Part shown: piece by piece, positions 17,831 through 58,670 of the stretch
How the letters are laid out: every line of letters starts with the position of its first letter
How positions within the stretch are numbered: the stretch's first letter is position 1
DNA from: Saksenaea vasiformis B4078
Taxonomy: Eukaryota > Mucoromycota > Mucoromycetes > Mucorales > Saksenaeaceae
Assembly (NCBI GenBank): GCA_000697055.1
Contig: JNDT01001594.1
Span: 27,543-91,542 of the forward strand
DNA: 64,000 bases
Direction of reading: 5' to 3'
Notes under the pieces: model-generated
What the model saw: only the letters and a program-made list of their open reading frames with translations
Told to the model about the DNA's origin: nothing
The model's database searches: none
Program-made: the position numbers and the translations under genes

Positions 17831-17904
17831 ACGCTAAGAAAAGAATCAAGTATGCGTTCGTTAATACATAAGTTGGCGACAAATTCATACACTACTTACA
17901 TCAA

Positions 17905-35237: not shown

Positions 35238-35510
35238 GAGGCGGACGTCCAGAAGTTTTGTATATATGAAATCGTTTCCCGAATTGAAAGATGACGAATA
35301 AATATGCAACATCTGAGCGGTCTCTGATGTTCTAAGAAATATGGTTTATTGAAATGATCGCTGCTATACGATAGTGTAGACATTTCTAAAAGAGGACGCA
35401 CTCATTTTATTTAGAAAGGGTCTTTTGAAAGAGCTGATGTGTGATGTACGAACACGCAGCGTTCGCTCGACTTTCGGATGTTCTGAGAGACACAACCATC
35501 CTCCTCTGCA
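35238..35510 (+). repeat. Dispersed repeat family R2, copy 2
   Basis: Matches 13886-14160 in the same orientation (AAAGATGACGAATAAATATG, GATGTTCTAAGAAATATGG, TGAAATGATCGCTGCTATAC, AGAGGACGCACTC, GAACACGCAGCGTTCG). It forms the left border of the subtilase array. Confidence 0.85.
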
Positions 35511-35514
35511 GTGC

Positions 35515-37319: not shown

Positions 37320-37350
37320 TATATAAGCGTACTCTGCATTAGTACATAAA
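37320..37350 (+). promoter_or_regulatory. TATA elements of subtilase A
   Basis: TATATAAG at 37320-37327 and TACATAAA at 37343-37350, 141-164 bases before the ATG. The second aligns with TATATAAA in the promoters of B (44561) and C (50579). All three are followed by a sequence like CAGCTGTCAACATATCC and a pyrimidine-rich leader. Confidence 0.6.
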
Positions 37351-37483
37351 CGAAGTCCTGATTCAGCTGTCAACATATCCTACTTCTGTTTTTATTTCTT
37401 TCTTTTAATATTAGTTGTGAAAGCTCTCTCTCTCTTTCTCTCTATCGCGTTTTCATTGTCTATATACTGTTGTCCTCGCCACG

Positions 37484-40400
37484 ATGATAGCCATATTATC
37501 ATTCTCCGCAGCCGCCATTAGCTTATTACTAAGTGGATCGTTTAGTGATGCGTTTGAGCATCCCAAATTGAAAACATTAAATCCCGACATTCGTCCTGGT
37601 GATCGATACATTGTGGAGTTTACTGCAGAGAAAGAACCTAGAAGGGTCTTTGACGAGATTGAAAACCAATTTAAGCAAGCAGGTGTCTCTGTCGCCCATA
37701 TCTACAACCATACATTGTTTGTTGGCGCGTCTTTCCAATTCAATGGCGCAGATCATGGGCTAGCTTTAGCATCGCTTCTGAATAGGAGCAGCGTCGAGTC
37801 TGTCCATTCGGTAGTTTCGATCCCCCGTTCTAAAGTCGAAATCACGCATAGCTTGCCGAATGTACTACCTGAATTTGTACCTACAATTCTTCCCCACAAC
37901 ATGACACAGGTGGATCGGGTACATAAAGAGCTCAATGCAAAAGGCAACGGAGTTGTCGTTGGACTTCTGGGTACAGGTAATTCAAGACAAACTTTGGAAC
38001 GCATATGGTGCTAAAAATGGAACATGACTATAACCTTAGGTGTCGACTACTACCATCCAGCGTTGGGCGGAGGATTTGGTAGAGGTCACAGAATTCGATT
38101 TGGGCGCGACTTGGTTGGTGATCGTTATAATGCAGACGACCCAGATCCAATTATCGTTCAGGGCTCTACACCTTTCGACAGCTGTAGCTACAGCGAATTC
38201 GCTACGGCAGAGGCCACAGGTTCACTATACACATCCATGTGCATTCGCTCCTTCTAACAGAAAATATAGGTCATGGGACGAGCGCTGCTGGTATCATAGT
38301 TGGCTATGATCCTGAAGCGGTCAGTAGAGAGTAAAAACAAAAAAAGAAACAAAAAACAAAAAAAAGAGGGTGTCAATGTAGCAATTGAAACTCATACCGC
38401 AGGTTCTCCTGTTTTAGAACTTTACTGGTGTCGCTCCAAGGGCGAAACTCGGCGTATGGCGGATCTTTGGTTGTCAAGGAACTACTGGAACAGATATCGT
38501 CGTCAAAGCGATGCTTGAAGCATTTGACGTTGGTGTCGACGTTATCGCTGTAACTACTAGTAGTCTAAATTCCTGGAAATCCAGTCCTGACGTTATTGTT
38601 ACCGAACGTATTATCAGGAGTGGAATCCCAGGTAAAAATATGGGAGAGAGCACCTCTGAACTTAAGCACGAGCAATGTAAATAGTCTTATTCCCAGCTGG
38701 AAACGATGGTGAGCATGGTATGTTCACGTTGAATCAGGACAGTACGGCTGATGGTGCCGTTTCTGTTGCCTCTTTTGAAAACGAGTATACTATTGGAAGC
38801 TCATTCACGGTTACGAATATCAATTCGACATTAAGTAGGAGATCATTTCAACGCTTATTTCTTCATTATCTCACAATCTAACATAGTTTATTATCCGGCG
38901 CGTCATGGCATCGTACCGCCTGCTGCAGAACTTGCAGCTGGCGATGTGTATCTTGGAGGTTTGCAGGACGGATGCGATGCATATACTGTCCCTAGTAATC
39001 TGCACGGAAAGATTGCCCTATTGAAACGTGGCGCATGCTCGATCGACCAGCAGGCCATCAATGTCGCCCGTGCCGGTGCAATCGGCCTTATTATCTATAA
39101 TGCCTTATCAGATTGTGCCATTTTTCCAGTTACCAACAGCTCGCTCCCCGTGGTTAGCGTGTCTTTCAGCACAGGCGAAATCCTTGTTGATGCCATACAG
39201 AGAAATGGGACCATGATTGTTCGGTTCAATATGGACAACTCGATTCAGAAGATTGTAAGAGGGAATACACCCTCTTGCTTCAGTTCTATTGGCCCGACTT
39301 ATGATTTGTTTCTCAAACCAAACCTTGCTGGCCCTGGTGGTAATGTGTATACGACGATTCCTCGCTCTCTTGGCAGCTGGGGCATCGTGCATAGTACGGC
39401 TATGGCCACAGCTTATGTTACTGCTACAATCGCGCTCTATCTTAGAGCAGATCAGCAAATGAATCGAACATCTCTGTTTATTATGGAACGGTTTCAAAAC
39501 TATGGCTACGTTGCACCTCAGTTAAACGATCAACCAGGAATAGCTTCTCCTTTACAGCAAGGTGCGGGCCTTGTCCAGGTCTATGATACGGTCAAAGGCG
39601 ACGTTCATGTTTTCCCCGCGCAGATCAGCTTCAACGATACCTCATCCTCCACGTTCCAAAACCATACACTCAATATCACGAACTATGGTCAGGAGGATGT
39701 CACTTACAATGTTGTCAACAACGTCTCGTTAACGCTTATACCCTTTCCAAACCTCGGGTATGGGCCCAACCCTACAGAACCTGCAATATTCAGCACCAGA
39801 AGCAATGCCACTGCCAATTTAGACTTTAGCCGAACAGAGATACTCATTAGGCCAGGAGAGTCGGAGACCATTAATGTAACTGTAACTCCGCCAAGCAACG
39901 GTCAAAGTTTGTATTTGATATATGGTGGTTACATTCAAATGAAGGCTGTCGGCAGTGCGACAGATATCAGTATTCCGTACGTTGGTACTGCTGGACGTAT
40001 GAGTGATTGGCCTGTTCTAGGCGATTACCTCTTTCCGGTCCACATCACTGACCAAAATGACACATTGTACTCTTCCTACTGTGGGTATGTGTATGACCGT
40101 AGCCAAGAATACTCTGAGCCTGTCTTGAATTTTCACCTGAGTGTCGGTACACCTGAGCTCCAAGTTGAACTTCTCAGGACCACACCGGAAGATATTCAGG
40201 GTTGTGCTCTTAATGACACACCGGAAGAAGCACTGGGTTATGCCCCGAACGCCATCTCAGAAGAGGTTCAGGGTTGTACTCCTAATTCAACCACATCAGA
40301 AGAGGTTCTGGGATATGCTTTCCCCACCATGAGAGACTTACCTCGCAATTATTTTGACTATGACTTGGCATACACTCGACTTGTTTGGGCGGGTACATAC

Positions 40401-40577
40401 TCGCAGACTGCACAATCAGATACGAATTTTACAACGGAAGTCGAAGATGGTGTATATAGACTTCGTGTCAAGGCCCTGAAAATTTTTGGCGATCCAAACA
40501 ATATATGCGATTGGGACATTCAAGTAACAGTTCCCATTAATGTTACAACCCAGGAAAATCGGTTGCCACAGCCGTAA
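37484..40577 (+). CDS. Secreted subtilisin-like (S8) pseudoprotease A
   Basis: Subtilase with PA domain and Fn3-like C-terminal region; 925 residues. Exons 37484-37976, 38040-38219, 38270-38319, 38418-38631, 38685-38834, 38887-40577. Signal peptide MIAILSFSAAAISLLLSGS. An I9-type propeptide region follows (DRYIVEFTAEKEPRRVF). Catalytic motifs: Asp loop reads GLLGTGVDYYHP (Asp163 to Gly), His loop GHGTSAAGI (His226 kept), oxyanion PAGNDGEHG (Asn319 kept), Ser loop STAMATAYV (Ser534 to Ala). PA domain: KIALLKRGACSIDQQAINVA. The glycine-rich SGPGGN-type region precedes the Ser loop (AGPGGNVYTTIPRSLGSWG). A repeat insertion at 40187-40320, absent from B and C, adds about 50 residues. Triad lost, yet frame and splice sites are intact, so a non-proteolytic secreted role is likely. 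Confidence 0.93.
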
Positions 40578-41279
40578 CTGGCAAAAAAAGCTCGTCCTTA
40601 AAAAATAAAAATAAAAACTTAATCACGACGTCGTTTCTTGCTGTTTTATCCATACTTCCTTGGCATACGTTTACCACTACAAAAGTATACTCAGCATCAC
40701 TCCGTCAGTTCGGTTAATAGGATAGCAAATTATAATTCAGTCCCCTGTTCTAACAGAATAAAAATATCCCTGACCGAGTCTCACGCATTCCAACGCCAGA
40801 TTCTCGACATAGCATCTAAGCGACACTTCACTTGCGAAGTATATCCTTGATGTGTCACTTTTAGCATGATTCATCTTGTCATACGGTGTATGCTTTGCAC
40901 CAGATCTTACCGTAATGATTTCCTTTTGACGTATCACCTTGCACATTACTGTTCGTGTTTCTTCATTTCTATCCGTCTTCTTGCGTTATCCCAGAAACCA
41001 TAATCTTTATAAGTGTCCCAAAGATCAAAAATGAGGAACATTGGTGCTGCACGAAATTCATCTTTTGACTTCCTACAGTATGTCCTAATATGTGAGACGA
41101 AATGAGACAACAAGACGAGATACGGTATAGCGCCATCGTTGGTTCCGATTTAAGTGATTTATTTATGAAGGCAGTGTTTTACGGGATCAACCAAAGCATG
41201 GAGTATTAGAGTGACAGACGTGTTGCTTTGGGGGACCTTGTACGGATCACATTTTATAATTAAAAGGTCATCTGCTAAT
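40578..41279. other. Spacer between array units A and B
   Basis: About 700 bases. The left edge has A-rich sequence with AATAAAAATAAAA near 40600, a likely polyadenylation zone for gene A. No gene recognised. Confidence 0.4.
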
Positions 41280-42030
41280 ACGTTGAAGGTCGAGGTCATT
41301 GCTGCGTTTTTCTCCCTTGAGGATCGGGATTCTCGAACGCAATCAAAGGATTTTTTTCAAAATTAAAGCTGATGGTAATATTTGTTGTTTCCTACCGCTT
41401 TCCGCTCTCTGCATGTCAGATAGGAGCTTATCCATGATGCTGCGAAATGTAACAATATCATCGCCGGGATATTATCCTGAAATAGATAAAACATTCACTA
41501 ACATGCTAATCACATGTTTACGAGTCGGATTAAGCAATATATTAACTGGCTGTCAATAACAATCGACATCTAGAGATGTCGCTAACACTACTAACGATCT
41601 GCTTTTGTCAAAAAGAAGGACCAGCAGATGCAGACTCGCGCCACTGGATTTGTCCGCGAGATCTATTTGACCACGGTAAACATAAAAGCTAGATTTTGAT
41701 GGTGACTCAAATTACTGTGCAAAACTAGTACTTAAGTGTTCAAATTCATATACAAAATTGTTGTTATCGTAAATAGATTTATATGGAAATAAGCCTACTG
41801 GATACACCAGAGGTAAATCCATTGTATTCATTCCTTGGCAGACAATATTTAGCCGAGGAAAATAATGTGCCAGACCGCATCAGGATAAATAAAATTGTAA
41901 CAGCCGCATTGACTGACACTGTCATCCCCATAGACGACTCATGCGCGAACATGCATAGTAAACGTGATCTTAGATTATTATGTTTTCATATGGTACCGCA
42001 GGAAATTATTTAAGCCGCGTTGGATAGTAC
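41280..42030. repeat. Subtilase-array upstream block, unit B, with a small conserved open frame
   Basis: Continues the block family of 35515-36200 (AATCAAAGGATTTTTTTCAA, TAGGAGCTTATCCATGATG, AATCACATGTTTACGAGTCG). At 41783-42013 a 76-codon plus-strand frame (YSFLGRQYLAEENNVPDRI, RINKIV, DDSCANMHSKRDLR) resembles one at 49687-49893 in unit C (YSFLGGQYLADGNYVPELI, DTSCVNMHSKSDLR). Resemblance at the amino-acid level suggests it was once coding, perhaps an exon fragment. Confidence 0.6.
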
Positions 42031-42429
42031 AACTGATCTTCGAATGATAAAGAATTTGTCAAAGGTTTGGTTAACAGGGTTTTAACGCTCTTCGGAGATG
42101 TTCTCCTGTAGTGTGGTCCAAGATGCTCTCAAGTAGTCCGTTCTTTTTACAGGTTTTTTCCCATGGTTTTGCGTCTATTTGAAATTATTCGGCGCTACTT
42201 CCAGATTGCTACCGACTACTGATTATGATCTACTAGACGATATGGGTTGGGATCCAATTCAGGGTCAGAGGTGATGCAGCTGAAAAAGATTGTTCTTTAT
42301 TCTCTGGCTCAGTCTGCCTTAAGTAACCGGCACTGAAATCAGAGTCAAAATACAGCTAAACTTTTCTAGGTCTATAACACAGATAAGTTCTGCGCTTTAA
42401 AGTACGTACTTTCACGTTCATGCTTATAT

Positions 42430-43105
42430 AGCTGGAGTTTGCACTTTGAAGTAGTTCCATTTTTACAATGATGGACTTCTTAGTATCCTATTTGAAAGCG
42501 TAAAATGTCTTCAGAAAGGAAACTGTTTCATCGAAAGCAGTACGTCCTTTTGACGTTGAGATGATCCATTGTATGAGTGGCAGGTTTCTCTGTGCCTTGT
42601 CACAAGGCACAGACATGTTTCAAGATGGAGTATCCACCAGAATGATCCATATTTAAAGAGACGCATGTTTTTTTATTCTTTGGCTCTGTTTGACTTTAAC
42701 GTCCACGGTAAGGGTGTCAGTTTTTCGTTACACCAGAAAAATTGTTCATGTTTTCTTCCTGTTGTGTAGGCTGCATGAGCTCTGTCCCGAACCGTCTTGG
42801 CTCTGTGTATAACTTTGCTCATCACTTCAGTAGGTAAACGTTGTCATACTCAGCATCACGGACTCTTTCGTGATAGATGACCAGACGCTGCATCGCTTCA
42901 AGTCCTTTGCAACCATTAAACTATCTGCCAATCCCAGCTATCGACCGCCCTCATTCACCTGCCCCACCGCTTCAGGTGCGGGGTTGGTACCTGCATAACC
43001 GCGGGATTATCCCTTCGCGGGGTTAAGTAAAAGACATCAAAGCATCTTTCATTTACTAACCATGAATTATTTTTTATGCTGCTTGAATAAATTTTCGCGT
43101 GTGCG
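42430..43105 (+). repeat. Dispersed repeat family R1, copy 5
   Basis: Upstream repeats (AAGTAGTTCCATTTTTACAA, GTAAAATGTCTTCAG), then CCATATTTAAAGAGACGCAT, CTTTGGCTCTGTTTGAC, CCACGGTAAGGGTGTCAG, CTCTGTCCCGAACCGTCTTG, GTGCGGGGTTGG, CCCTTCGCGGGGTTAAGTAA, TTTACTAACCATGAATTATT, GAATAAATTTTCGCG. Inside the upstream part, 42590-42612 is a palindrome with 10-base arms CTGTGCCTTG / CAAGGCACAG. Confidence 0.87.
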
Positions 43106-43578
43106 TTACATGGAGGAAAAATGATGATGGTGCAATATTTGTTTGTGGATTTTGTTTGTTTCATCGTCAGCGATACACAGCAAGTCGTATGAGTCTTTTC
43201 TATATTTAACTGAGAAAGTGAGAGATGGTGTTATATTTGTGCGTGTGTATGCCCTTGTGATGTTCTGTTCATTGAGTTGTCCCAGGGCAGTAGAATGATT
43301 GCCTTGTTGTTTTACAAATGGTCTTAATTTTGAATGTTATTCCATTTTAAGGTATGGACCTATGTCCCCGTATGCGATGTACGACATCGCCAGCACGTGC
43401 AAAATTAGAAATTTTGAGAACATAGAAGTGGCTAGATAGAACCTGGGTACGATAGAGCGACGATACCCTGTGTGGTCAACATGTTTCGAGTGTTGAGATG
43501 TCACAACATGAAGTACCACGATAAAAACTAGATACGACATAGCTCCACTTTCCAAAAGTATCTAAAGGCTGTCTTTCA
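43106..43578. other. Spacer right of R1 copy 5
   Basis: 470 bases, no gene recognised. A minus-strand open frame (43337-43555) has no recognisable domain. Confidence 0.35.
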
Positions 43579-43850
43579 ATGCTTATCACACTGGATCATT
43601 CACGGTTACAAGGAAACGCAAGTAAGAGTTATCATTGGTGTCTGAAGCCGACGCAATTACGGAAGTACAGAACGCCAGAGGGTAGAATCCAGAAAAGCAA
43701 CGGAGCGGCGTGTTGCGTCAATCCAGAGCATCCTAGTCTATCTAGAGGTTACACTACCATGGGCCGAGACCTCAATGCTTCACGAGAAATCGCCTTGAAA
43801 GGAATCTTTATGGTCGTTTCCCCCCGATGGAAGTCCTTTGGCTCTCTTTC
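43579..43850 (+). pseudogene. Fragment resembling the C-terminal zinc ribbon/RuvC-III end of a TnpB/Fanzor protein
   Basis: The plus-strand frame reads LRKYRTPEGRIQKSNGAACC, VNPEHPSLSRGYTTMGRDLN, then ASREIALKGIF. The pattern of a CC-containing zinc-ribbon half followed by G-x-TT-x-x-RD-x-NAS-x-x-I matches the end of TnpB-like proteins, where the RD Asp is the third catalytic acid. It differs clearly from the Fanzor remnant at 8650, so it would be a second lineage. No upstream RuvC-I part could be found. A splice-like GTAAGAG at 43621 may start an intron. Moderate support only. Confidence 0.45.
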
Positions 43851-44560
43851 AGTTCTCGGTACACGAGCACTTTCCAGCTCGATAACCTTTTTGCTGGTCA
43901 ACCAACCCAGATTCGACAGGTGCAAGGCCCAGAAGGGCAATTACTGTAGTAAGTTATTCGGCTTTTTACGTATTTTATCGGTTCTTAAATTTGAGTGTAG
44001 ATACCTCCTCAGTATCAAGGCGGAAGACCATACTTTCTCAGCAGAACCTGATTATGCGTAGAGCGAACGCGCCCCTGAAAATGCAGCATATACATTAATG
44101 TCTAGAAAAAGAGCATAGGCAGGCTGAATGTATAAATTTGGTCGGTCATTTCAACCATGGAATGGGTGTTTCGAAAACGGCTTTTCGGTCGAGAACCATC
44201 ACATTTGTGCTCTTCAATAAGATTTGATTACTCACGTGTTATATCGAAAGAGAAGTCTTCATATCCACAACAAATGGGATTAAGCTGTAATAATTAACTC
44301 CCTTTCCTTTTTCTTTCTTTCTCTCTTTTTTTTTATTCTTTTTCAAAAACGCATTGTAGGATGATAGATTACATAGTTAAACCGAATTGCCTCACATTGA
44401 AATTAGATTAATGATTGCACTAACCACAGTTGTAAAATGCGTCGGTCCAGTTACCGGCTTGGGTACCTATATCCTGCGTTTGAGAATGTAAACTACAGAT
44501 AACTAGTATAGATTTTCTTCATAGAGCTCTGAGGTAGAATATAGCCACGCTTCGCATTAA
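43851..44560. promoter_or_regulatory. Upstream region of subtilase B
   Basis: About 700 bases. Contains the array-wide blocks TTCTCAGCAGAACCTGATTA (44036), a T-rich stretch (44305-44345) and CACTAACCACAGTTGTAA (44418). Confidence 0.55.
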
Positions 44561-44568
44561 TATATAAA
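44561..44568 (+). promoter_or_regulatory. TATA box of subtilase B
   Basis: TATATAAA, 128-135 bases before the ATG at 44696, followed by CAGCTGTCAACATATCCTG as in gene A. Confidence 0.6.
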
Positions 44569-44695
44569 CAGAAGTCTAGCACTCAGCTGTCAACATATCC
44601 TGTTCCCGTTTTTTTATATTCTTTTTTTTTTCTCTACCGGCTGCGAACGCTCTCTCTCACAGTTCCACTGCTTATCTACTGCTGATTTCTTTACC

Positions 44696-47605
44696 ATGAT
44701 AACCATCTTACCATCCTTCGCAGTCGTTATTAGTATATTACAAAGTGGTTCCTTTAGCGAAGCATTTGAACATGCAAAGTTGAAAACTTCGGATCCCAAC
44801 ATCCACCCTGGTGATCGATACATGGTAGAGTTTGCTACAGCAGAGGAGCCTAGAAGGGTCTTTGACGAGATTGAAGATCAATTTAAGCAAGCAGGCGTCT
44901 ATATCGCCCATATCTACAACCACAAATTGTTCTATGGCGCCTCTTTCCAATTTAATGGCGCAGATCATGAGCTAGCTTTAGCGTCGCTTTTGAACAGGAG
45001 CAACGTTGAGTCTGTCCATTCGGTCATTTCGATCCCCCGTCCTAAGGTCGAGATCACGCATAGCTTGCCGAATGTACCACCTGAATTTGTCCCTACAATC
45101 CTTCCTCACCATATGACACAGGTGGATCGTGCGCATAGAGAGCTCAACGCGGAAGGCAATGGAGCTTTGATTGGGCTTCTCGATACAGGTTATTTATCTA
45201 TCTCAGTGTTTGGAATGCCTACTGAAAGGGGGAGCGCAATTGGGACCTTAGGTGTTGATTACTATCATCCAGCGCTTGGCGGCGGATTCGGTAGGGGCCA
45301 CAAGATTCGGTTCGGTAGAGACTTGGTCGGTGACCTTTTTAATGCGGACGACCCACGACCAGTCGTTATACCGGGCCCTACGCCTCTCGACAACTGTAGC
45401 CACAACGAGTTTGCCACGGTGGATCCTGCAGGTTTACTTCACATATTCACGCGTGTGTGCTTCTTCTAATAATGAATATAGGCTATGGGACGAGCGTTGC
45501 GGGAATCATAGTTGGGTACGATCCTGCGATGGTCAGTGGAGAAAGAGAAAACGAGAAAGCCAATGTGGCAGTTTTGGCTCACGCAGCATGTACCTCTATT
45601 TTAGAACTTTACTGGTGTAGCTCCCAGAGCAAAACTCGGTGTGTGGCGTATCTTTGGCTGCCAAGGAACCACTTCAACAGATATCGTCGTTAAAGCAATG
45701 CTTGAAGCGTATGACGTTGGTGTTGACGTTATCGCTGTCACTACGGGTCGTCTAAACTCTTGGAAATCCAGTCCCGATGTTGTTGTTACCGAACGTATTA
45801 TCAGGAGTGGTATCCCAGGTAAGAAAATGGTAGAGAACGCGTTTGATATTAAGAACAAGCAATGTAAATAGTTTTGCTCCCGGCTGGAGACGATGGCGAG
45901 CATGGTATGTTCACGTTGAATCAGAACAGTACAGCTGATGGTGCTGTGTCTGCTGCCTCCTTTTACAATGAATATACTATCGGACATGTATTCAGTGCCA
46001 CTGGGATTAACTCAACGTTAAGTAAGAGTTTACGTTCAAGTTTATTTGTTCATTATCTCACAATCTAAATTAGTTTACTATCCTGCGCAGTATGGTATTG
46101 TACCATCCGATGGAGAACTCGCGGCTGGAGATAGGTATCTTGGAAGTTCACTCGACGGATGCACTATGGCCACCGTCGCCAGTAATCTGACTGGAAAGGT
46201 CGCGCTCTTGGGACGTGGCGTCTGCTCTGTCGACCAGCAGGCCGCCAATGTTGCTCACGCTGGTGCAATTGGTCTTATTGTCTATACTTCCAGATCAGAT
46301 TGCGTCCTTTTCCCTACTACCAGTAGAACGTTCCCTGTGGTTAGTGTATCCTTCAATACTGGCCAAACTCTTCTTGATGCCCTGCGGCGGAATGGCAGCT
46401 TGATGGTCTGGTTCGACTTGGAGAGCTCAGTTCAGGAGACGTTAATGGGGACTAAACCTTCGTGCTCCAGCTCTATCGGTCCGACGTATGACTTATTTCT
46501 CAATCCGAATCTTTCTGGTCCTGGCGGCAATATTTATACGACTATTCCTCGCTCCCTCGGTAGCTGGGGCATCGCGCATGGCACGGCAATGGCCACAGCT
46601 TATATTACTGGCGCCATTGCGCTCTACCTCAGAGCAGCTCTACAAACGAACCGAAGCCCTTTGTTTATTTTGGAGCACTTTCAAAACTATGGCTACCTTG
46701 CGCCTAGGTATGGCGACCCACTAGGATTAGCATCTCCTTTGCAGCAAGGTGCAGGTCTTATCCAGGTTTATGATGCAATCAAAGGGAGTGTTCACGTCTC
46801 TCCTGCGCAGATCAGTTTCAATGACACTTCGTCCTCCACTTATCATACATATACCCTCAATGTCACTAACTATGGACAGGAGAACGCTGCCTACAAGTTT
46901 GTCAACAATGTCTCATTAACGCTTCAGCCCTTTCCCATTGTGGGGTACAGACCCAATCCTACAGAACCTGCACAGTTTGTCGATCGTAGCGACAGCACTG
47001 CCAGCTTAAACTTTGGTCAAACGCATCTGGTCATTCGGCCAGGAGAGTCAGAAACCGTCAACGTAACCGTAATTCCGCCAAGAAACGGTCAAAGTTTGCA
47101 TTGGATGTACGGTGGCTACATCCAACTGAAGGCTGTCAGTGGTGCGACAGACATCAATATTCCTTATGTTGGCTCTGCTGGACGTATGCGTGATTGGCCT
47201 GTTCTGGGGAGAAGGCTATTCCCGATTCATCTCACCAGTCAGAATCAGTCATGGTACAACTATAATCGTGGCAGAGAGAACACTGAGCCTATCTTGAATT
47301 TTCACCTGATTATCGGTACACCTCAGCTGGAAGTACAACTTATTCGAGACCCAGAGGAAACCGTTCTGGGTTATGCTTTCCCTACAATGTATAACCTGCC
47401 TCGCAATTATCTCCCCAATGACTTGCGATTCACTCGTCTCGTTTGGAGAGGTACATATTCGCAGAATCCCCATACAAATTTCACACTAGTGGTCAGAGGT
47501 GGCACATACAAGCTCCGCGTTAGGGCTCTTAGAGTCTTTGGTAATCCAAACAATTCAAGAGACTGGGACATTCAAACGACAGTTCCCATTTTAGTGAGCA
47601 ACTAG
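44696..47605 (+). CDS. Secreted subtilisin-like (S8) pseudoprotease B
   Basis: Array paralogue of A; 872 residues. Exons 44696-45188, 45252-45431, 45482-45531, 45605-45818, 45872-46021, 46074-47605. The first five exons have exactly the same lengths as in A and C (493, 180, 50, 214, 150). Signal peptide, propeptide region (DRYMVEFATAEEPRRVF), catalytic region, PA domain (KVALLGRGVCSVDQQAANVA) and a C-terminal Fn3-like part are intact. Asp loop GLLDTGVDYYHP keeps Asp163. His loop is GYGTSVAGI (His226 to Tyr). Oxyanion position is PAGDDGEHG (Asn319 to Asp). Ser loop HGTAMATAYITG (Ser534 to Ala). Many N-x-S/T sites in the C-terminal half suggest glycosylation. Proteolysis is not expected; binding or decoy functions are open. 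Confidence 0.93.
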
Positions 47606-50578
47606 GAAAATCAGTTGTCATTTTCATATCTGACAAGAAATGCTTATCTGTAAATTAAATGAAGTACGCTTATGACCAGATGACAAGGTCTTCCAGTCAT
47701 TGTCATCCGACTATGTTGGACGCCATGACATTGGAAAACGCTTTTCTATGCTGTGGGTCATCTAAAGAAAGTTCTTCTCCATGGAAATCAATCAGAATTG
47801 GATATGGAAGTTGCCAGAGATAGACGGCATCGCTAGCCAAACTCGACCAAAGGAGATAAAAGAGGAATATATCCACATGTGTACCCCTAAAGACATGTGC
47901 GCTTCACATAGACATCGCTTATTTAAGCGCACTCCTTTTATATGAGCGTATGTGCACAGCGTGCAAATATGCAAGATATTGAGTACGACTGTCGTCCCTA
48001 TCTAGACCGTCGCCAGGTACTGGCTAGTCCGCACACAAGACCATGAAGATCTGTCTTTATCACAGTTACACAAAAGTACGGGGAGAAGCTCTATTATAAA
48101 AGTATCAAGAGAAAGATAAGATAGTCGAAATAATAGAATGTTAATACAATATGTCCGAGGATGACTATATGTGCCACCAGCGAAGAAGGTCATATTAAGG
48201 CTTGCTAAGACACCTTAATGAACACTGCGATGCTATTCTGGCCGAAATAAAGGTAGGTCCGTGTGCATAATTCCAGCTGCAAGAGTATCTATTGCTACTC
48301 TGGACTACGACTCCAGGAAGGATGCAAAATCGCAACAAACAAAGCGGAGAGATGTTGCAATTATCGAGATGCTCTGGCCACCTGTCAATGGCGACAAGAA
48401 GTTATGCCACCGCGGTTGGAAGACTTAGATAACACTATTTGCCCGAATCTGATGAGAAATAATCCAGAAAGGTCTGAAAACACTAGAGGAACGTGTATGT
48501 GATGCTGTCATTCTTGTAGGCGCCGTTCTTTTTGGCTTAATCAACTTCTCTGTAGAAGTAGTACCTGGAAGAGCTAAACGATGGAGCGGATTTTCAAACT
48601 GGCGGATCCACCACATCAGGAATTTTTGTAGGAATCGCATTTCGTACCTGAAAACCGATCAGTTTCGTGAATTATCAAAGCTGATAAGGCACTGAAGGTC
48701 GCTACTACCGATACGTTTTCCTTTCTTCAGGATTACCACTCCTGGACCCAGTCGAAGAATTTTCTCAAAACTAAAGATAGTAATGAGACGTGTTTCGTCC
48801 CTTTTTTCTTTCTTTGAGCTTGTCAAGGACGAATTTATCCAAAAGGTTGTGGAATGTGGCAACACTATTGCCCAGAGCAATACCTGAAATGGAATAACAG
48901 CATTGAAGGGCGCGTTTTTGCTCATACGCAAGGGGATTTCAAGAGTTTAATTAATTGTTTGTCAAATCTGCGCTCATGACAATTTGGAATTAGAAAATCC
49001 AGTATCGCATTAGATGCTCGAATTTCATATATAGTTGATGCTGTAATGCGCCAAACCTTTTAATTCGCGGTTTTCCAATAGATGTCAAGTTTCTACAACG
49101 CCGACACAATATATGGAAATAACCGGTCGTCTTTGTCCAATCTGCGATGAGAGGTAAACACGAATGAATCTTTTGTGTCCTTCCTCACCCACAGCCCTGG
49201 CATGCATGCCCATACTCTACGCCTCTATATATCAAGTACAGAAATTGCATTACCTCCATATGTTTTAGGTAGCTGTGTGGGAATGAACCGTCGCCCAAAG
49301 CGACGGTCACGCGTCGCCGCAAACCACCCGGACCGCTATCCTCAGCAAACGTCTGGGAGTGTGTAGCAAACGACCGTTCTATCACGTCAGCGGATATAGC
49401 TGGACACGCAGCCACCTTTTGCTTGCTAAGACAATAATCCAAATCTTCAGTCTCTACGCGAAGGTCCAGATAAATTTCGCAAGCTTTAAATATCTATAAA
49501 TTTTTTAAAACCAAAATCAACTATATTCAGATTACTACACAATGCTCTATATAATGTAATCCAGTTACCTCTAGACGGCTGATGTTCCTCCTGTCGCTAT
49601 AAACTTCCCAATGTTTACTAAAAGAAATTCGTAGATTACAAATTTGACGCACTGCATCGTCAATATATTGCACGGAAGTAACCATAGTGAATACGTCAGA
49701 GGTAGGTCCAGGATATTCATTCCTTGGTGGACAATATCTAGCCGACGGAAACTATGTACCAGAACTCATCAGGATAAATCAAACTGTATTGCCTGCATTG
49801 ACTAAAACTGCCTTCCCCGTAGACACTTCATGTGTGAATATGCATAGTAAATCTGACCTTAGGTCTCTAAGTCATGTTGGATACTGTAACTGAGGAGAAC
49901 GTAAAAAGGGAATGCCATCAAAGATTTCCCAACTTTTAGGTTATGACATCCCATAAGCGTTTTTGAATACTAGTCTCCATAATGTGGTCCAAGGTGTTTT
50001 CAAGCTGCACGTTTTCTTTTGTCAGGTTTGAAAACATATGTTCTCAGCAGAATCTGATTATGCGTACCGCACATGCGTCCCTGAAAAAAGATGCAGCATG
50101 TACATTAATGTTAAAAAAAGTAAAGGCGGGCTGCATGTAGAAACTTAATCTGTCATTCCGAGAACGGAATGGGCATTTGAAGCATGTTCACGATCGAGAT
50201 ACCATCAAAAACTTGACAACTGTAATAAATAGTACTAAGTCGTAATAATCCAATTCTCTTTCTGTTCTGTTCTGTTCTGTTCTATTCTATTCTATTCTAT
50301 ATGTTTCCTTTTCTTGCATTTCCTTTGGCTTTTTTTCCTTTTCTTTCGTTTCTATTTTTTTAAAGCACGTTGCATCACGTAAAATTATCTAATTAAAACA
50401 AATTGCCTTACACTGCAAAATTAGACAACGATTGCACTAACCACAGTTGTGTTATATGTCTACTCAGTTATTGACTTAAGCCTCTAGATCATATGTTTGA
50501 GAATGCAAACCATATCGGACTAGTGTGGATTTGCCTCATAGAATCTTGAAGGAGAATATAACCAGTGTTTTGCACTAT
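47606..50578. repeat. Array spacer and upstream block, unit C
   Basis: Nearly 3 kb. 47640-47890 (AAATGAAGTACGCTTATGAC, TGTTGGACGCCATGACATTGG) is a 3' flank block also found after C (53640-53880) and D (58710-58870). 48230-48990 is the upstream block family (AAAGAATTTTCTCAAAACTA type). 49687-49893 holds the conserved small open frame also seen at 41783. 50041 has TTCTCAGCAGAATCTGATTA. A pentanucleotide microsatellite (TTCTG then TTCTA) lies at 50261-50300. No complete gene. Confidence 0.65.
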
Positions 50579-50586
50579 TATATAAA
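50579..50586 (+). promoter_or_regulatory. TATA box of subtilase C
   Basis: TATATAAA, about 102-109 bases before the ATG at 50688, at the position matching the boxes of A and B. Confidence 0.6.
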
Positions 50587-50687
50587 CAAAGATCTTGTCC
50601 TCCGCTGTCGGCACGTCTTGTCTCCGGAGCTTATTTTCCTCTTTTTCCCTACCGGCTACGAACACTGTATACTGCATTTTCTTTATG

Positions 50688-53590
50688 ATGATAGCCATCT
50701 TACCATTCTTCGCAGTCATTGCTGGCATATCACTGCGTGGCTCGTTTAGCGAAGCATTTGAACATCCAAAATTGAAAACCTCAGACCCTGACATCCATCC
50801 CGGTGACCGATTCATCGTAGAGTTTACTACAGCAGAGGAGCCTAGAAGGGTCTTTGACGAGATTGAAGATCAATTTAAGCAAGCAGGTGTCTATATCGCC
50901 CATATCTACAACCACACATTGTTCTATGGCGCCTCTTTCCAATTTAATGGCGCAGATCATGAGCTAGCTTTAGTGTCGCTTTTGAACAGGAGCAACGTCG
51001 GGTCTGTTCACTCTGTGCTTTCGATCCCCCGTCCTAAGGTCGAAATCACTCGTAGCTTTCTAGATGTACCACCTGGCATTGTCCCTACAATTCTTCCTCA
51101 CAACATGACGCAGGTGGATCGCGCACATAGAGAGCTCAATGCGAGGGGTAATGGGGCTCTTATTGGACTTCTGGATACAGGTAAATCAACTCAGTGTTTG
51201 CATGCATACTAAAGAAAGCGGAATTGGTACCTTAGGCGTCGATTACTACCACCCAGCGCTGGGCGGTGGATTCGGTATAGGTCATAAGATTCGGTTCGGC
51301 CAAGACTTGGTTGGTGATCTTTTTAATGCGGATGACCCGCATCCAATCATTATGCCGGGTCCCACACCTCTCGACAACTGTAGCTATAACCAATTCGCCA
51401 TAGCAGAGCCTGCAGGTCTATTTTACACATTCACGCGTCTTTTACACCTTCTAACGGTTAGTATAGGATACGGGACAAGTGTCGCAGGAATCATAGTTGG
51501 TTACGATCCTGTTATGGTCAGTACAGAAAAAGAAAACGACAAAGCCAACATAGCAGTTCTGGCTCACGCAGCATGTACCTCTACTTTAGAACTTTGTTGG
51601 TGTCGCGCCCAGAGCAAAACTCGGCGTGTGGCGTATCTTCGGTTGTCAAGGAACCACTTCAACAGATATCGTCGTTAAAGCAATGCTTGAAGCGTATGAC
51701 GTTGGTGTTGACGTTATCGCTGTCACTACGGGTCGTCTAAACTCTTGGAAATCCAGTCCCGATGTTGTTGTTACCGAACGTATTATAAGGAGTGGTATTC
51801 CAGGTAGGAAGATGGTAGAGAACGCGTTTGATATTAAGGACAAGCAATGTAAATAGTTTTGTTCCCGGCTGGAGACGATGGCGAGCATGGTATGTTCACG
51901 TTGAATCAGAACAGTACAGCTGATGGTGCTGTGTCTGCTGCCTCCTTTTACAACGAGTACACTGTCGGACGCTTATTCAGAGCTACTGGTGTTAATTCAA
52001 CGTTAAGTAAGGATCTATTTTCATGCCTATTTGTTCATCGTCTCACAATCTGCCTTAGTTTACTATCCAGCACACTACGGTATTGTGCCACCAGCAGCAC
52101 AGCTTGCGTTTGGTGATAGATATCCTGGGAGTGTACTCGACGGATGCGGTATGGCCACCATCGCCAGTAATCTGACTGGAAAGATCGCGCTCTTGAGACG
52201 TGGTATCTGCTCTGTCGACCAGCAGGCCACCAATGTCGCTCGTGCTGGTGCAATTGGACTTATTATTTATAATTCCATAGCAGATTGTTACCTTTTTCCT
52301 AATACTAATAGCACGTTCCCCATCGTTAGTATAACTTTCGGCACTGGCCAAATCCTCATCAATGCCCTGCGAAGTAACCATAGTGTAACCGTCCAGTTCG
52401 ACGTGAGCACCTCAGTTCAGGAGACGCCAATGGGGAGTAAACCTACATGCTCCAGTTCTATCGGTCCGACGTATGGCTTATTTCTCAACCCAAATCTTTC
52501 TGGCCCTGGCGGCAACATTTATACGACCATTCCTCGCTCCCTCGGTAGCTGGGGCATCGCGCATGGCACGGCAATGGCCACAGCTTATATCACTGGCACC
52601 GTTGCGCTCTACCTCAGAGCAGCTCAACAAGCCAACCGAAGCCCTTTGTTTATTTTGGAGCACTTCCAAAACTATGGCTACCTTGCGGCTCGGTACGGCG
52701 ACCCACTAGGATTAGCATCTCCTTTGCAGCAAGGCGCAGGTCTTATCCAGATCTATGATGCAATCAGAGGCAATGTTCATGTCTCTCCCGCGCAGATCAG
52801 TTTCAACGATACGTCAACCTCTGCTTACCATACACACACCCTCAATGTCACCAACTATGGACAGCAAAATGTCACCTACAATGTTGTCAATAACGTCTCA
52901 TTAACACTCGAGCCTTATCCGATTGTCGGGACCAGACCCAACCCTACAGAGCCTGCCCGATTTGTCAACCGTAGCGATAGTACCGCCAACTTAATCTTTA
53001 GTCAGACACATCTATTCCTTGGGCCTGGAGAGTCAGAGATTATCAATGTAACCGTAGTTCCGCCAAGAAACGAACAAGGTTTACATTGGATGTACGGTGG
53101 TTACATCCAACTGAAGGCTACCAGTGGCACGACAGACATCAATATCCCTTATGCTGGTTCCGCTGGAAGCATGCGTGATTGGCCCGTTCTAGACAACTAC
53201 TTCTTCCCGGTCCATATCAATAATCAGAATAGGTCCTGGTACAGCTACGACCGTAGCAGACCAAACACTGAACCTGTCTTGAACGTTCACCTGACTATCG
53301 GTACACCTCAGCTCGAAGTGCGTGTTATTCGAGACCCAGAGGAAACCGTTATGGGTTACGCTTTCCCGATCATGAAAAGCCTGCCTCGCAACTATCTTCC
53401 TGATGACTTGCGCTACACTACTCTTGTTTGGAGGGGTAATTACTCGCAAAATGCATATACAAATTTCACAGCGGTGGTCAGACCTGGCACGTATAGGCTT
53501 CGTGTCAGAGCCCTCAGGATCTTTGGCAATCCGAACAATTCAAGCAATTGGGACACTCAGACAACAGTCCCCATTTTAGTAATGCACTAG
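50688..53590 (+). CDS. Secreted subtilisin-like (S8) pseudoprotease C
   Basis: Closest paralogue of B; 872 residues with exon lengths identical to B. Exons 50688-51180, 51236-51415, 51467-51516, 51590-51803, 51857-52006, 52059-53590. An ATG three bases upstream (50685) is also in frame; 50688 matches the paralogues. Signal peptide MIAILPFFAVIAGISLRGS. Catalytic positions: GLLDTGVDYYHP (Asp163 kept), GYGTSVAGI (His226 to Tyr), PAGDDGEHG (Asn319 to Asp), HGTAMATAYITG (Ser534 to Ala). PA domain KIALLRRGICSVDQQATNVA. C-terminus ends TTVPILVMH. Exons 4-5 and the intron between them are almost identical to B, well above the flanking identity. Same pseudoprotease reasoning as for B. Confidence 0.93.
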
Positions 53591-56500
53591 AAAGCATGTT
53601 TGCCATTGTTATAGTTGACACTAAATTTTTCTCAATAAATTAAATGAAGCACCCTTGTGACCAAACAGTAAATTCTTCCAACCATTGCTATTCAATCATG
53701 TTAGACGCCATAATATTGAAGTGGTCTCTTTTCTGCTATGGTTCGTCTAAAGGGAGTTCTCTTCCATGTCACTCAATGGGAACTCTGGTTATGAAAGTTG
53801 TTACAAGATTGCACCGCTAACCAAACTTGATCCAGGGGTTGAAGGAGGTATATATCCAACTGTATACCCGTAAGGACATGTGTGATTTACATAGCAACGA
53901 TAAGCAGACAGGACACCAGAAGGATAGGGATAGGAGTACCATTGCGGTATTACGCGATAGACGCAGCCTATTAAGTACTCTTCTCCTTTGGAAGGCTATT
54001 TACAGCAACCTTAGGATGAGCAAGCCTGCCACGCTTTGTCAAACTCTACATACGTTGTTATGGTAAGCAGTACATTTTATTCACCTATACTTCCTGCTGC
54101 TGTTGATTTAACAAAGAAGGATAATATAGGCGAGCATGGAGACATAGATAAAGCATTCCTCATCAACAAGGATAAGGACTGGCTCCTCAATAATATGCCT
54201 TGTCCGCTTCGTCGGCTGTCATACTTCCCATCTGGAGACATGGGAAGCACATAATTTGCAGCGCAATTTAATGCTGATATTCTACAACCTAATCTTCCAA
54301 GTAACAAATGTGGTGCTTAGAATATATGGCGATGGACATTTTATTATGCAACAGATACGAGCTGATGCCCAGACTTATATCAAGCATTTTCGCACGCGAA
54401 GCACATCAAGCGACTTGCCTATACACCGGATCCAGACCTTTTGCAGCTGATGGAGCCTACTGGAGAGAAGTAGTAACCAAATGGACCTATCTGAGCGACA
54501 TGTTTTGGTATCCTTTTCATTTAACACCAGATAAACTTATCCAATTTTTCTTCTTCATTTGAAACCTGTGGTTAACTCAAGCGCTATCTCTGAGTTTTTC
54601 TACGGATCGACCACGACTATCACTTCCATGAATTGCACCGTTGGCATCTTTCGATATGATTGGACAAAAGTTTACTCCCGTATTTGCTGTTTTATAAGAT
54701 GTCTTACTATCAAAGCCGTAATCATACTTCGGAAATCCATAAAAGGGATCCCTTTGAAGAACAAGACTTCGCAAACTCACTGAATCATTCCGTACCGATC
54801 TTGTGGAAAACCTCCTTGATTCTTCACCAAGACTCTTGCAACGAAAACAGCCTTTTTCGCGCTCTAAGGAATGCTGTAAGAGAAATATGGAACGCAACGT
54901 TCTCCTAAAGACACGAATGTTACAATATTAAAGCTGTTTGGCCGAGATGTGCATAGATCTAGACTCGATTAATGTGACTAATATAATCAGCAAAGCTGCC
55001 ATGGTTCCAGTGTTTAGTTTTGCAAAAAGCATCGTTTAGGATCTCCAGGATCATTACTGGAAACCTTGTCGGTCGCGCATGTTGTATGGCAATAAATGAA
55101 AAGTACTCGCCGGGAAGTGCTGTCTCTGGGCTCTCGACAACATGTGTATCCGCATGGTTGATATACCGAGTTGATTCATCTTTGTAAGAGCATCTTCGTA
55201 TCTTTATCTGTCCATGCATGCATGCTACGTAGCTATAAAGAACACTGTTTATTGGCCTTATATGCGATAAATGCTTATCTCTGTGAAACAACAATGTTCA
55301 CAGAAAAAGGGCATTTATTTCTCGGCATGCCTGCGCGTAATGCTCTTACAAGAGCAATGCGCACCTCTGGACAAATATTGGGAAGGAAAGAAGAAAGAAG
55401 AGACTTTGTTGTCCCGAGACGATAAATTATTGGAACCGATACGCCAAACCAAGGATATCATGTAAGAAGCCGTCAGACAATTATCGCCTCAGCGTTCCAT
55501 TCATATGAACTAACTGTGTAATTGATGGTTCGAACTGGTTGAGGCGAACTTGCACCTCTGCAGTCCTCCCACCTATTCCTTCTTTATTTCCGCTTTTTTG
55601 TAGGTACTGTAAACCCTTCAATAGTTATCGAATGCTAACTTTATCCCACAGAGACACCGACCGTTCGTTTTCTTCTTCACTGTTCCATTTTTTTCCCTTT
55701 CTTTTCCCGCCTTTTTTTCTTTTGAAGCACTATAGTTCTTTCAATGTTCGTCATACACTGACTTCAACCTGCGCAACTTTTTATTTTCTCTCTTCCTTTT
55801 ACCCCTGGGGAGCACGGGTCCCTTCTAATGGATTGGTATGCACTGGATGGGGATTCAGTACCAGTAAGTGCTTATCTTTGTGTTGAGTGATGGATTTCTT
55901 ACCGAGCTCTTTTTCTATTTGTAGCGTCTGGCGGCTTTGGTTTTACCAGATTTTGAGCTTTTTTTTTATAAAACTTGTAATCATACCTTGTGGCAATCCG
56001 ACGGGATGCGCCGCGGCCCCCGCCTCACGTGGTGGGAGATGGATTTCTGTCTACGTAGATCTGGATATCCGTCATTACACGTTCTTGTTCTAAACACTTT
56101 TTTTATTATTTCTTATGTCTCCGTTGGCTTCCCTCATCACTGCTAAGCTTTTAGGCCATTGTTGTATGGGTAAGTTAATTGGGACAGTAGACGGATAGAA
56201 TCCTTTGAGACTGTTGGATGTCTTTATTTCAGTTAGATTGTCTGCCTATTTATATGATTCAGTCTTTTAGCGGAAATAAGAATTAGTGAACGTTCTTCTC
56301 GGTATTAGGTGTGGATTATAGAATGGATCAATTACTGTGATGACACAGTGCTACCTTGTTGTACTGAACTCGGTGATAAGTCTAAGTTATAGATGATAAG
56401 GTTCAGTTGGTGTTCCAGTGGAGAAGTTCACTGTATATGGAAACACGATTAATCCCCGATCTTTCCTGTTATGGAACACAATTCTATAGGATGGGCATTA

Positions 56501-56599
56501 CGACGGTCAACATATACCACAGCCATTGATACCGACTCAAAAATACCACGTATCTGTTACATCTTCCCGTTTTACCAAACCAGTGCCGGCACCAGCACT
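53591..56599. other. Long spacer between C and the D remnant
   Basis: 3 kb. The first 300 bases are the shared 3' flank block. Beyond about 53950 I see no recognisable gene; open frames at 54308-54562, 54577-54897 and 55171-55425 have no known domain. A pyrimidine-rich stretch lies at 55660-55810. An intron-like segment (GTAAGTGCTTA at 55865 to TTGTAG at 55924) sits in non-coding sequence, possibly an untranslated or decayed transcript. Confidence 0.4.
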
Positions 56600-57330
56600 G
56601 TCATTGTACACCTCGATGCCGAAGCCAGCAGTCAGATGACAATCTTATGGCTCCGAGAGAGTATTTCACCCGGGAAACAAAGAAATGTAGATCATCCAGA
56701 CGCTCTGGAATTTATCATAGGCGACAAGAAGTTACGTTATCGCGGCTGGAATCCTATATTTCAGCTGTCTAAACTGCATCTTTGACTGATATCTTTTACG
56801 CGTTCATTGGTGCCAGTTATTTGCTGGATCTGAAGAGAGATCGGCAATGCAGAATCAAAGATACCGGAGGAAAATGAAGATAACGTTATCATCTTTGCAA
56901 CCACTATTAGTTCCTTTTAATCAATTTAACTATGAGGGAGAAATTGCAGGCGCCGAATGGCGGTATTAATTGTCAATGTCACGGATGTACTACACCGGGG
57001 AATTTTGTACGGACGATATTTTGCACTTGAATATGGAGAGGTTACCAAAACCGTCAAACCCTCCAAAAGATTAAAGTTCGAGACTATCAGTGTATCATTG
57101 TTGCCATTCCTGGACACAGCCAAGGAAATTTTCTTAAAACTAGATACGGTGATGGGACATACCTCTACCCCTTCTCTTTGCTCTCCTGGACTTTCAGAGA
57201 GGAGCTTATCGACAAGGTTGTGGGATGTGGCAAAATCGTCACCGGGGACAGTGTCCTGAAATGGACAAGGCATCCAATAGCATGTTTTTATTCATGTGTA
57301 TGAGAGAAACAAACATTTACCTAATTGGAT
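56600..57330. repeat. Subtilase-array upstream block, unit D
   Basis: Related to the blocks at 35515, 41280 and 48230: GGATCTGAAGAGAGATCGG (56826), AAATTTTCTTAAAACTAGA, AGAGAGGAGCTTATCGACAA, GTTGTGGGATGTGGCAA. Here both strands have longer open frames (57273-56926 minus; 56957-57259 plus), so this may be the least decayed version of whatever was duplicated. The minus peptide includes DDFATSHNLVDKLLSE. Not recognised. Confidence 0.6.
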
Positions 57331-57439
57331 GTCAAACCCAAGTCAATAGAAATTGACAGCCGAAGAGAACCAGTACCTTACAGCACTGGCTGAATCCTTG
57401 TTGATGTGCCGCAGAGTAGTAGCAGCATAAGCGTTCAGT

Positions 57440-58670
57440 TTAGTATGACAGCTCGACTCAGGAGGTCATGAGGGAAATACACTCTCCTGTTTCGGTTCCA
57501 TTGGTCCGACTTATGATTGGTGATAACGTCTATACGACTATTCCTCGGTCACTTGGAAGTTGGGGCATTGCGCGTGGCACAGCGTTGGCTACGGGTTATG
57601 TTGCTGGTTCCATTGCACTCTATCTTATGGCACCTCAACGAGTGGATCGAAGTTCTCTTTATATCATGGAGTAACTCCAAAACTATGGTCAACCCGCGCT
57701 CCAGTATGCCGACCAACTGGGATTGGCATCATCTTTACAGCAAGGTGCAGGTCTTATCCAGGTCTATGATGCGATCAAGGGCGCAGATTAGTTTCAACGA
57801 TTTCTCGTCTTTTACCTACCATGCATACACCTTCAATGTCAGCAACTATGGGCAGCAAAATGTCACCTACAATGTTGTCAATAACGTCTCATTAACGCCT
57901 GCACCATTTGGCAATCTCGCACTCGAAGTCAACCCCGTAGATCCCCTTCCCCTTTCCCCAACCCGTGGGCCAATCGGACCCTACGGGACCCGCTCAATTC
58001 AGCAACTGTAGTAATACCGCTGCTACTTTAAACTTTAGTAATACCACACTGCCAATATAAACCTCAGCCAAACGTGCCTACTCATCAGGCCTGGAGAGTT
58101 AAAAACAGTTAATGTAACCGTAACTCCACCAAGCAACGGCGAACATCTACATTGAATGTACGGCGGTTACATCCAGCTGAAGAATATTAGCGGCCCGGCA
58201 GATATCAATATTCCCTATATTGGTGCTGCTGGAAGCATCCGTAATTGGTAATTTCTAGGGAGTTTTTCCAATCCACATCAACAATCAGACAGTCCGATCG
58301 TACCGCTATCATCTTTAAGAATCCACTCTCTGATCCTGTCGTAAACTTTCACTTGTCCATTGCTGCGCCTCAGCTCGAAGTAGACCTCATTCTAGGCAGC
58401 GGTGATGGGTTTGTGGGTCATGCTTCCCCACTATGGATTATCTGCCTCGTAACTATCGCCCCAAGGCCTCACGATACATTAGTCTCGTTTGGAGGGGTAC
58501 ATATTCGCAGAATGCGTATACAAACTTTACAAATGAAATCGACAGCGCTATTTATAGAGTTCGTATTAGGGCCCTCAGCACCTTTGGTGATCCAAGCAAT
58601 TCAAGCCATTAGGATACCCAAACAACAGTTCAGATTGAAGTGCCCAATGCGTAAGATCAGTCAGCGCTGT
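57440..58670 (+). pseudogene. Subtilase D, truncated and broken array member
   Basis: Only the region after the PA domain remains. It starts near the glycine-rich loop (VYTTIPRSLGSWGIARGTAL) and continues through ATGYVAGSIALYL. The Ser-loop position is again Ala (RGTALATGY). A stop (TAA) follows SLYIME at 57672-57674. A small deletion removes the segment between IKG and AQISFND (57780), and further frame changes occur near 57960-58010 and 58240. Late pieces match the C-terminal Fn3-like part of A-C (NYGQQNVTYNVVNNVSLT, APQLEVDLI). Signal peptide, propeptide, Asp and His regions are missing. No functional product expected. Confidence 0.9.

Follow-up and report, generated by a model that had tools for sequence, protein, structure and literature searches.

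In a 64,000-nucleotide window of the genome of Saksenaea vasiformis B4078 (contig JNDT01001594.1, here C289), positions 37,484 to 58,670 carry a tandem array of genes of the S8 (subtilase) peptidase family, three of which, named A, B and C, are intact and have Ala in place of the catalytic Ser. Judged on their sequences, A, B and C are very probably dead subtilases that selection has maintained. The explanation that we favor as a whole, with a probability of roughly 0.6, is that they are maintained S8 pseudoproteases with secretion leaders, which would act by binding. The window, by which we mean the whole stretch analyzed, is part of one of the 666 contigs of the 38.7 Mb source genome, and positions refer to it unless another contig is named.

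Organization of the array

Gene models for A, B and C were built by hand, and the model of B was also recovered by spliced alignment using C as template. Each gene comprises six exons separated by introns of 50-98 bases; no stop codon or frameshift was found, and GT..AG is kept at all 15 introns. The original prediction had described three full-length genes and one remnant, with frames, signal peptides, PA domains and C-terminal regions kept and with identical exon lengths. The models of A, B and C and the fourth copy, D, a broken piece of exon 6, agree with this description, as does the retention of frames, leaders (by eye), PA domains and C-terminal parts in the three genes. The identity of exon lengths held for exons 2-5 (180, 50, 214 and 150 bases in A, B and C alike) and did not hold for exon 1 (493, 493 and 496 bases in A, B and C) or exon 6 (1691, 1532 and 1532 bases), which in A is longer by 53 codons. 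The extra C-terminal residues of A (40182-40325), absent from B and C, resemble an imperfect short repeat (EE..LGYA / EEVQGC).

The duplicated units extend beyond the coding sequences. Over 3.9 kb, of which about 650 bases precede the start codons, the units around B and C share 79.6% identity, and the region around A (36838-40208) aligns with 44032-47377 at 73%, again with about 650 bases 5' of the gene in each unit.

All three proteins matched the Pfam families S8 (PF00082), PA (PF02225) and fn3_5 (PF06280). For protein B the respective scores were 68.4, 42.6 and 49.7 bits, against curated cut-offs of 21.8, 23.9 and 27.6; for A and C the matches rest on member counts and best E-values. The insert in the S8 domain matches the PA domain (PF02225), and no jelly-roll insert of the type found in CspC, a bacterial protein discussed below, is present in A, B or C. 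Each protein starts with a hydrophobic leader, judged by eye and not by a signal-peptide program. Residues 23-140, which align without gaps across A, B and C and have a counterpart in active relatives, were named prodomain-like by their position. Four cysteines that are invariant in a 35-row alignment of relatives are retained in A, B and C and in a further dead copy located on contig C560.

Loss of the catalytic residues

An active S8 peptidase carries the Asp, His and Ser of the catalytic triad and the oxyanion Asn, and none of the three proteins has the full set: the Asp/His/Asn/Ser positions read G/H/N/A in A and D/Y/D/A in B and C. At the Ser loop, A has HSTAMA, B and C have HGTAMA and D has GTALA, confirming the loops STAMA, GTAMA and GTALA that had been reported at the outset; the Ala had been placed at residue 534 in all three long genes, which is correct for A and B, the residue in C being 535 if the first ATG is used. 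Homologous to an active protease family and deprived of essential residues, A, B and C are probable pseudoproteases.

An alternative nucleophile is unlikely: the Ser loop of the dead copies aligns without gaps at the Ser position, and either the Asp (A) or both the His and the oxyanion Asn (B and C) are gone as well, so that no S8-type charge relay is left. Sequencing error as the source of the Ala was rejected, since Ala is common to five copies on two contigs.

A genome search located the dead copy on contig C560 (D/R/D/A), broken in the assembly by two frameshifts and one stop, and a close, intact and active gene on contig C456 (D/H/N/S), the nearest active relative of the array. When C served as template, the fit to C456 gave six exons of 493, 174, 50, 214, 150 and 1559 bases, of which exons 3-5 match the lengths in the array; a fit to the Apophysomyces protein P0001 merged exons 2 and 3, scores from different templates not being comparable. 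C456 is 54-56% identical to A, B and C, and the Apophysomyces proteins P0001 and P0002 are 48-50% identical to them. Nine further genes of the same family, on contigs C422 (three), C303 (two), C427, C623, C523 and C472, all read D/H/N/S; a poorly fitting locus on C441 (score 191) was dropped. The genes on C422 (29706-42300) and C303 (35541-41820) form other groups of this family, with complete catalytic positions.

The Ser was thus kept in 10 of 10 same-family genes of this genome beyond the dead copies (C456 and the nine), a check confined to this family among the S8 genes of the genome. It was also kept in all 138 database relatives checked, among which P0040 has Asp at the Asn position and P0149 a gap at the His. 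This count left out 19 of 157 listed S8 matches (P0047-P0065; two short, the others mostly distant), and one database search behind it returned the best 120 of 1712 matches. Loss of the Ser in A, B, C, D and the C560 copy is therefore not due to chance. By sequence, the best-scoring solved chains were an S8 family serine peptidase (8jmw), C5a-peptidase and cell-envelope proteases.

An exon-by-exon PF00082 scan of the genome listed 34 matches, none of which lies in the array. Only the best candidates are scored in that scan, so genes such as A, B and C may escape routine scans of this kind.

A probable single loss before the duplications

In the protein tree, A, B, C and the C560 copy formed one clade (100/100), sister to C456 (100/99), and this relationship persisted when 25 motif residues were removed. 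The duplication that separated the dead clade from C456 postdates the split from Apophysomyces P0001 and P0002; an alternative tree tying C456 to P0001 and P0002 was rejected by the approximately unbiased (AU) test (p 0.0085, and p 0.0063 without the 25 motif residues). As this clade has an active gene as its sister, a single loss of the Ser before the duplications would be the simplest account, in agreement with the original proposal that the Ser-to-Ala change predates them.

A, B, C and the C560 copy have three changes in common: the Ser position and the Pro position that follows GTSMAT both hold Ala, and HGTH has Ser as its fourth residue. The losses of Asp, His and Asn differ between the copies. 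The simplest order would be that the Ser was lost first and that the remaining positions eroded lineage by lineage. Within the dead clade the AU test keeps both B+C+C560 (p 0.054) and A+C560 (p 0.162) as possible clades, and in a later tree with the motif residues left out A groups with B and C (96/93); more than one number of His and Asn losses would be compatible with these groupings.

The stem of the dead clade has accumulated 0.50 changes per column, and C456 has accumulated 0.13 from the shared duplication onward. A rough dN/dS (ratio of nonsynonymous to synonymous substitution rates) of about 0.8 on the stem and 0.07 on C456 was obtained by arithmetic under an equal synonymous clock, with partly saturated synonymous sites (dS about 1.4).

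Selection after the loss

Codon-model dN/dS values, which as pairwise estimates assume a single rate over sites, were 0.281 for B-C (p 6e-29 against 1), 0.274 for A-B (2e-38) and 0.313 for A-C (1e-31). Comparisons with the C560 copy gave values likewise far from 1 (0.298 with A, 0.322 with B), p ranging from 6e-29 to 2e-38 over the five pairs. By region, the values for B-C and A-B were 0.279 and 0.254 in the prodomain-like region, 0.122 and 0.161 in the first part of S8, 0.508 and 0.386 in PA, 0.251 and 0.211 in the second part of S8, 0.231 and 0.260 in fn3 and 0.283 and 0.410 in the C-terminal region; in both pairs the first S8 part is kept best, and PA and the C-terminal region least.

In a one-lineage simulation of point mutation, none of 2000 neutral runs was stop-free at the B-C or the A-B distance, and at one tenth of the B-C distance 465 of 2000 were. 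The dN/dS values of 0.27-0.31 and the simulation together indicate that A, B and C were maintained after the loss, and the maintained pseudoprotease family proposed from the first inspection stood this check, its dN/dS being about 0.3 and not 1. By frame and dN/dS, A, B and C are not pseudogenes; D and the C560 copy are.

Remodelling of the dead proteins

The changes are concentrated around the active site. Of the columns conserved at 90% or more in 55 active rows, A, B or C have lost 11 of the 19 that lie in the active-site motifs and 4 of the 60 that lie elsewhere (Fisher p 7e-6), with 11 of 19 against 9 of 105 at a threshold of 80% and 10 of 14 against 2 of 33 at 95%. The motif windows, around the catalytic and S-L-G residues, were set after a first list of losses had been seen. 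C456, excluded from the 55 rows and used as control, lost none of 79 conserved columns at 90%. With 56 active rows and the 90% threshold, the columns kept were 2/2 in PA, 8/8 in fn3, 4/4 in the C-terminal region and 35/43 and 15/22 in the two S8 parts; with columns identical in all of the 14 nearest active rows, they were 6/6 in the prodomain-like region and 53/65 and 19/27 in the S8 parts. Altered in the dead copies as well are residues of the substrate-groove motifs that active members conserve: Ser and Gly in the S-L-G strand, the Ser that precedes G-T-S and the Pro that follows it.

Most of the lysines have also disappeared: A, B, C and the C560 copy have 18, 15, 12 and 13 Lys, whereas C456, P0001 and P0002 have 73, 60 and 55. 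Of 40 columns with Lys in both C456 and P0001, four are still Lys in A, B and C. As Arg is more frequent in A, B and C (38-46) than in C456 (33), part of the Lys loss is replacement. Composition bias was rejected as its cause: dead and active genes alike have a GC content of 0.47-0.49, and there is no depletion of Asn and Ile, whose codons are AT-rich too.

C456 has 7 N-glycosylation sequons, whereas A has 19, B 16, C 22 and the C560 copy 12. Shuffling the sequences gave 7-8 on average; of 2000 shuffles in each case, none for A, five for B, none for C and 119 for the C560 copy reached the observed count. Ten sequons are common to A, B and C; one of them occurs in all nine active rows compared, one in five rows and eight in none. 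Among these eight, three are also present in the C560 copy, and three have Asn where C456 has Lys. The 138 database rows have medians of 8 sequons and 5.3% Lys and reach 21 sequons and 1.6% Lys at the extremes, so that single rows approach the dead copies. Net charge is -8 to -40 in the dead copies, against +25 in C456, +11 in P0001 and +8 in P0002.

A proposed mode of action

From the tree and the rates, a copy of an active S8 gene, of which the sister C456 survives, lost its nucleophile after the split from Apophysomyces and changed fast. Judging by the sequences, catalytic and groove motifs changed, most Lys were lost and N-glycosylation sequons were gained, and purifying selection then maintained the new protein during duplication. 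Active subtilases remove their prodomain themselves. Because of this a dead copy should retain its own, as CspC does; without catalysis the N-terminal prodomain-like region would stay uncut in cis. That region would then fill the groove and leave the working role to other surfaces, most plausibly those of PA and the C-terminal region. Few Lys and many glycans would give resistance to secreted proteases. Through the PA and C-terminal faces, the parts most divergent between the copies, the proteins would bind rather than cut, and their likely partners would be extracellular proteins handled by active secreted proteases. What they bind may be substrates, inhibitors, the active sister or cell-wall material; binding, inhibition, a decoy function or wall structure had been suggested as roles at the outset. 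This zymogen-like, glycosylated binding scaffold, as worded here, is a tentative proposal with somewhat less than an even chance of being right, and our confidence in it was lowered slightly because the prodomain-like region has no Pfam match of its own.

A more far-reaching view, which we hold to be rather doubtful, is that the dead copies represent a lineage-specific class of "armoured" secreted pseudoproteases, long-lived, protease-resistant and remodelled beyond the active site. It would draw on the roughly 80% fewer Lys than in the sister, the eight sequons that all three intact copies have and the nine active rows lack, and the charge reversed relative to the sister. Such proteins might vie with active secreted proteases for substrates or partners, using the PA and C-terminal faces, the targets possibly belonging to rival microbes, to a host or to the fungus's own set of enzymes.

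Alternative explanations

The dead copies could instead regulate the active sister C456 or its paralogues, by pairing with the enzyme, aiding its folding or holding it inactive. This is unlikely, although of the alternatives it fares best: C456 is intact, is the nearest active relative and sits on a short branch, and the dead copies have preserved the prodomain-like region and the first part of S8 well. C456 and the array are on different contigs, though in a fragmentary assembly they may still be linked, and the changes in Lys, sequons and charge exceed what a mere partner would seem to need.

Somewhat less probable still is a decoy, in which the dead protease absorbs plant, animal or bacterial inhibitors and so shields active secreted proteases. 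A secretion leader, several copies, retained fold-defining residues and an active relative in the same genome would all suit this role. A decoy directed at the groove should, however, keep the residues of the groove motifs (the S-L-G and G-T-S flanking positions named above), and their alteration speaks somewhat against a canonical inhibitor decoy; the groove would moreover be filled if the prodomain-like region stays bound.

That the Ser-to-Ala change spread among the copies by gene conversion, rather than predating the duplications, is improbable. The near-identical windows of B and C do include codons 501-600 over the Ser loop (94 and 92%), but the Ala codons are GCT and GCG in A and in the C560 copy, which lies on another contig, against GCA; A and B share only 82% identity over codons 501-550, and removing the motif columns leaves support for the clade and its long stem.

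Very improbable is a relic family whose use was lost with the Ser, with A, B and C as the best-preserved remains of decaying genes: the broken state of D and the C560 copy and the rough stem dN/dS near 0.8 would fit, but the low dN/dS among three genes that all share the loss contradicts it unless gene conversion spread the loss late, and neither the neutral runs, none of which stays open, nor the intact intron borders agree with decay.

Expression and secretion of the array proteins are predictions from their genes, as are blockage of the groove and surface exposure of the sequons. Several observations weigh against A, B and C being maintained, secreted binding proteins. No match to the Pfam prodomain family (I9) was obtained for A, B or C at E values up to 1. 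The dead family also loses members, two of its five copies (D and C560) being broken. Compared in 50-codon windows, B and C show 92-98% identity at codons 51-100, 251-350 and 501-600 and 74-85% elsewhere, which suggests gene conversion between them; B and C would then not be fully independent. For A-C560, dN/dS (NG86, the Nei-Gojobori method) is 0.24 in the first S8 part against 0.12 in the prodomain-like region, so that the former is not the best kept. With the 14-row reference, losses also occur outside S8 (4/25 in fn3, 2/11 in the C-terminal region, 1/14 in PA). With a median charge of -14 in the database rows, the dead copies are set apart by their negative charge from C456, P0001 and P0002 and not from the whole family, and an active paralogue on C303 has 2.2% Lys and a charge of -34, so that neither low Lys nor negative charge is unique to the dead copies. 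Finally, the letter composition of the row winC in the first tree, and of winB, winC and C560 in the motif-free tree, departs from the tree model.

Coordinates and neighborhood

The positions of the genes and of the replaced catalytic codons are collected in Table 1.

Table 1. Genes of the subtilase array and codons at catalytic positions, in window coordinates
Feature	Position	Strand	Description	Basis
Gene A	37484..40577	+	intact dead subtilase, 925 aa	gene model; Pfam S8, PA, fn3_5
Gene A exons	37484-37976, 38040-38219, 38270-38319, 38418-38631, 38685-38834, 38887-40577	+		
Gene A, Asp position (163)	37970..37972	+	Gly codon, catalytic Asp position	
Gene A, Ser position (534)	39399..39401	+	Ala codon, catalytic Ser position	
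Gene B	44696..47605	+	intact dead subtilase, 872 aa	gene model; Pfam; spliced alignment
Gene B exons	44696-45188, 45252-45431, 45482-45531, 45605-45818, 45872-46021, 46074-47605	+		
Gene B, His position (226)	45484..45486	+	Tyr codon, catalytic His position	
Gene B, Asn position (319)	45889..45891	+	Asp codon, oxyanion Asn position	
Gene B, Ser position (534)	46586..46588	+	Ala codon, catalytic Ser position	
Duplicated unit around B	44029..47911	+	79.6% identical to 50035-53894 around C	
Gene C	50685..53590	+	intact dead subtilase, 873 aa	gene model; Pfam
Gene C exons	50685-51180, 51236-51415, 51467-51516, 51590-51803, 51857-52006, 52059-53590	+		
Gene C, His position	51469..51471	+	Tyr codon, catalytic His position	
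Gene C, Asn position	51874..51876	+	Asp codon, oxyanion Asn position	
Gene C, Ser position	52571..52573	+	Ala codon, catalytic Ser position	
Remnant D	57373..58648	+	exon-6 sequence only; stops and shifted pieces; Ser loop GTALA	
Remnant D, Ser position	57582..57584	+	Ala codon, catalytic Ser position	

A decayed repeated element lies upstream of each subtilase unit, with pieces at 35501-36720, 41337-42115, 48295-49862 and 56681-57284. The pieces gave no Pfam match, and the genome matches of one of them (49648-49890, 81 residues) are confined to the array. Elsewhere in the window, a tandem pair of cytochrome P450 genes (4516-5953 and 7138-8577) is 72% identical in DNA, and a dispersed repeat family occurs in both orientations (11872-12460, 17082-18376, 42623-43100 and 63366-63937) as pieces of about 180-1080 bases that are 65-75% identical. 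A neighboring piece of an ABCF-type protein is 92% identical to its Apophysomyces ossiformis counterpart.

Comparison with known systems

Sequences like these were set aside in three fungal surveys, to judge from the portions of these papers that were available. Proteins with two of three catalytic residues replaced were excluded in one (PMC5567314), genes with ambiguously aligned catalytic regions were treated as pseudogenes in another (PMC5371821), and incomplete triads were excluded in a third, some being noted as possibly neofunctionalised (PMC6169396). For Aspergillus niger, the available part of PMC7804941 counts a single putatively inactive serine protease and does not state its family. 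No description of a fungal S8 pseudoprotease family was found in the open-licence literature, subscription papers lying outside the search. The array would offer a tractable case for testing neofunctionalisation, since three dead copies are intact, their active sister lies in the same genome and purifying selection acted once the Ser had been lost. If the more far-reaching view of a long-lived, protease-resistant class were true, inactive subtilases dropped from fungal surveys as pseudogenes would hide a functional class.

The closest active proteins, C456 and Apophysomyces P0001 and P0002, are Vpr/C5a-peptidase-like S8 proteins with PA and fn3_5, and P0001 and P0002 share the Pfam domains of the array. 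Unlike the array proteins they have the full D/H/N/S set, 55-73 Lys, a positive net charge and 7-11 sequons.

Documented S8 pseudoproteases are CspA and CspC of Clostridioides difficile, and the prodomain of CspC remains uncut (both according to the available text of PMC6636752). As described there, they resemble the array in having a subtilase fold with two of three catalytic residues replaced, in being maintained and in having an active relative, CspB, in the same genome; they differ in being bacterial spore proteins with a jelly-roll insert. The proteins of the array are fungal and combine a predicted secretion leader with PA and fn3_5 domains, numerous sequons and few Lys.

PIMMS2 of Plasmodium is described, in the part of PMC5520436 that was available, as a subtilisin-like potential pseudoenzyme. 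According to the same text it has a signal peptide, as predicted for the array, and the protein is retained although its orthologues differ in which catalytic residues they have lost; unlike the array proteins, it has a transmembrane domain and occupies one syntenic locus across Plasmodium species. The array, in contrast, is a tandem family, so far from one fungal genome.

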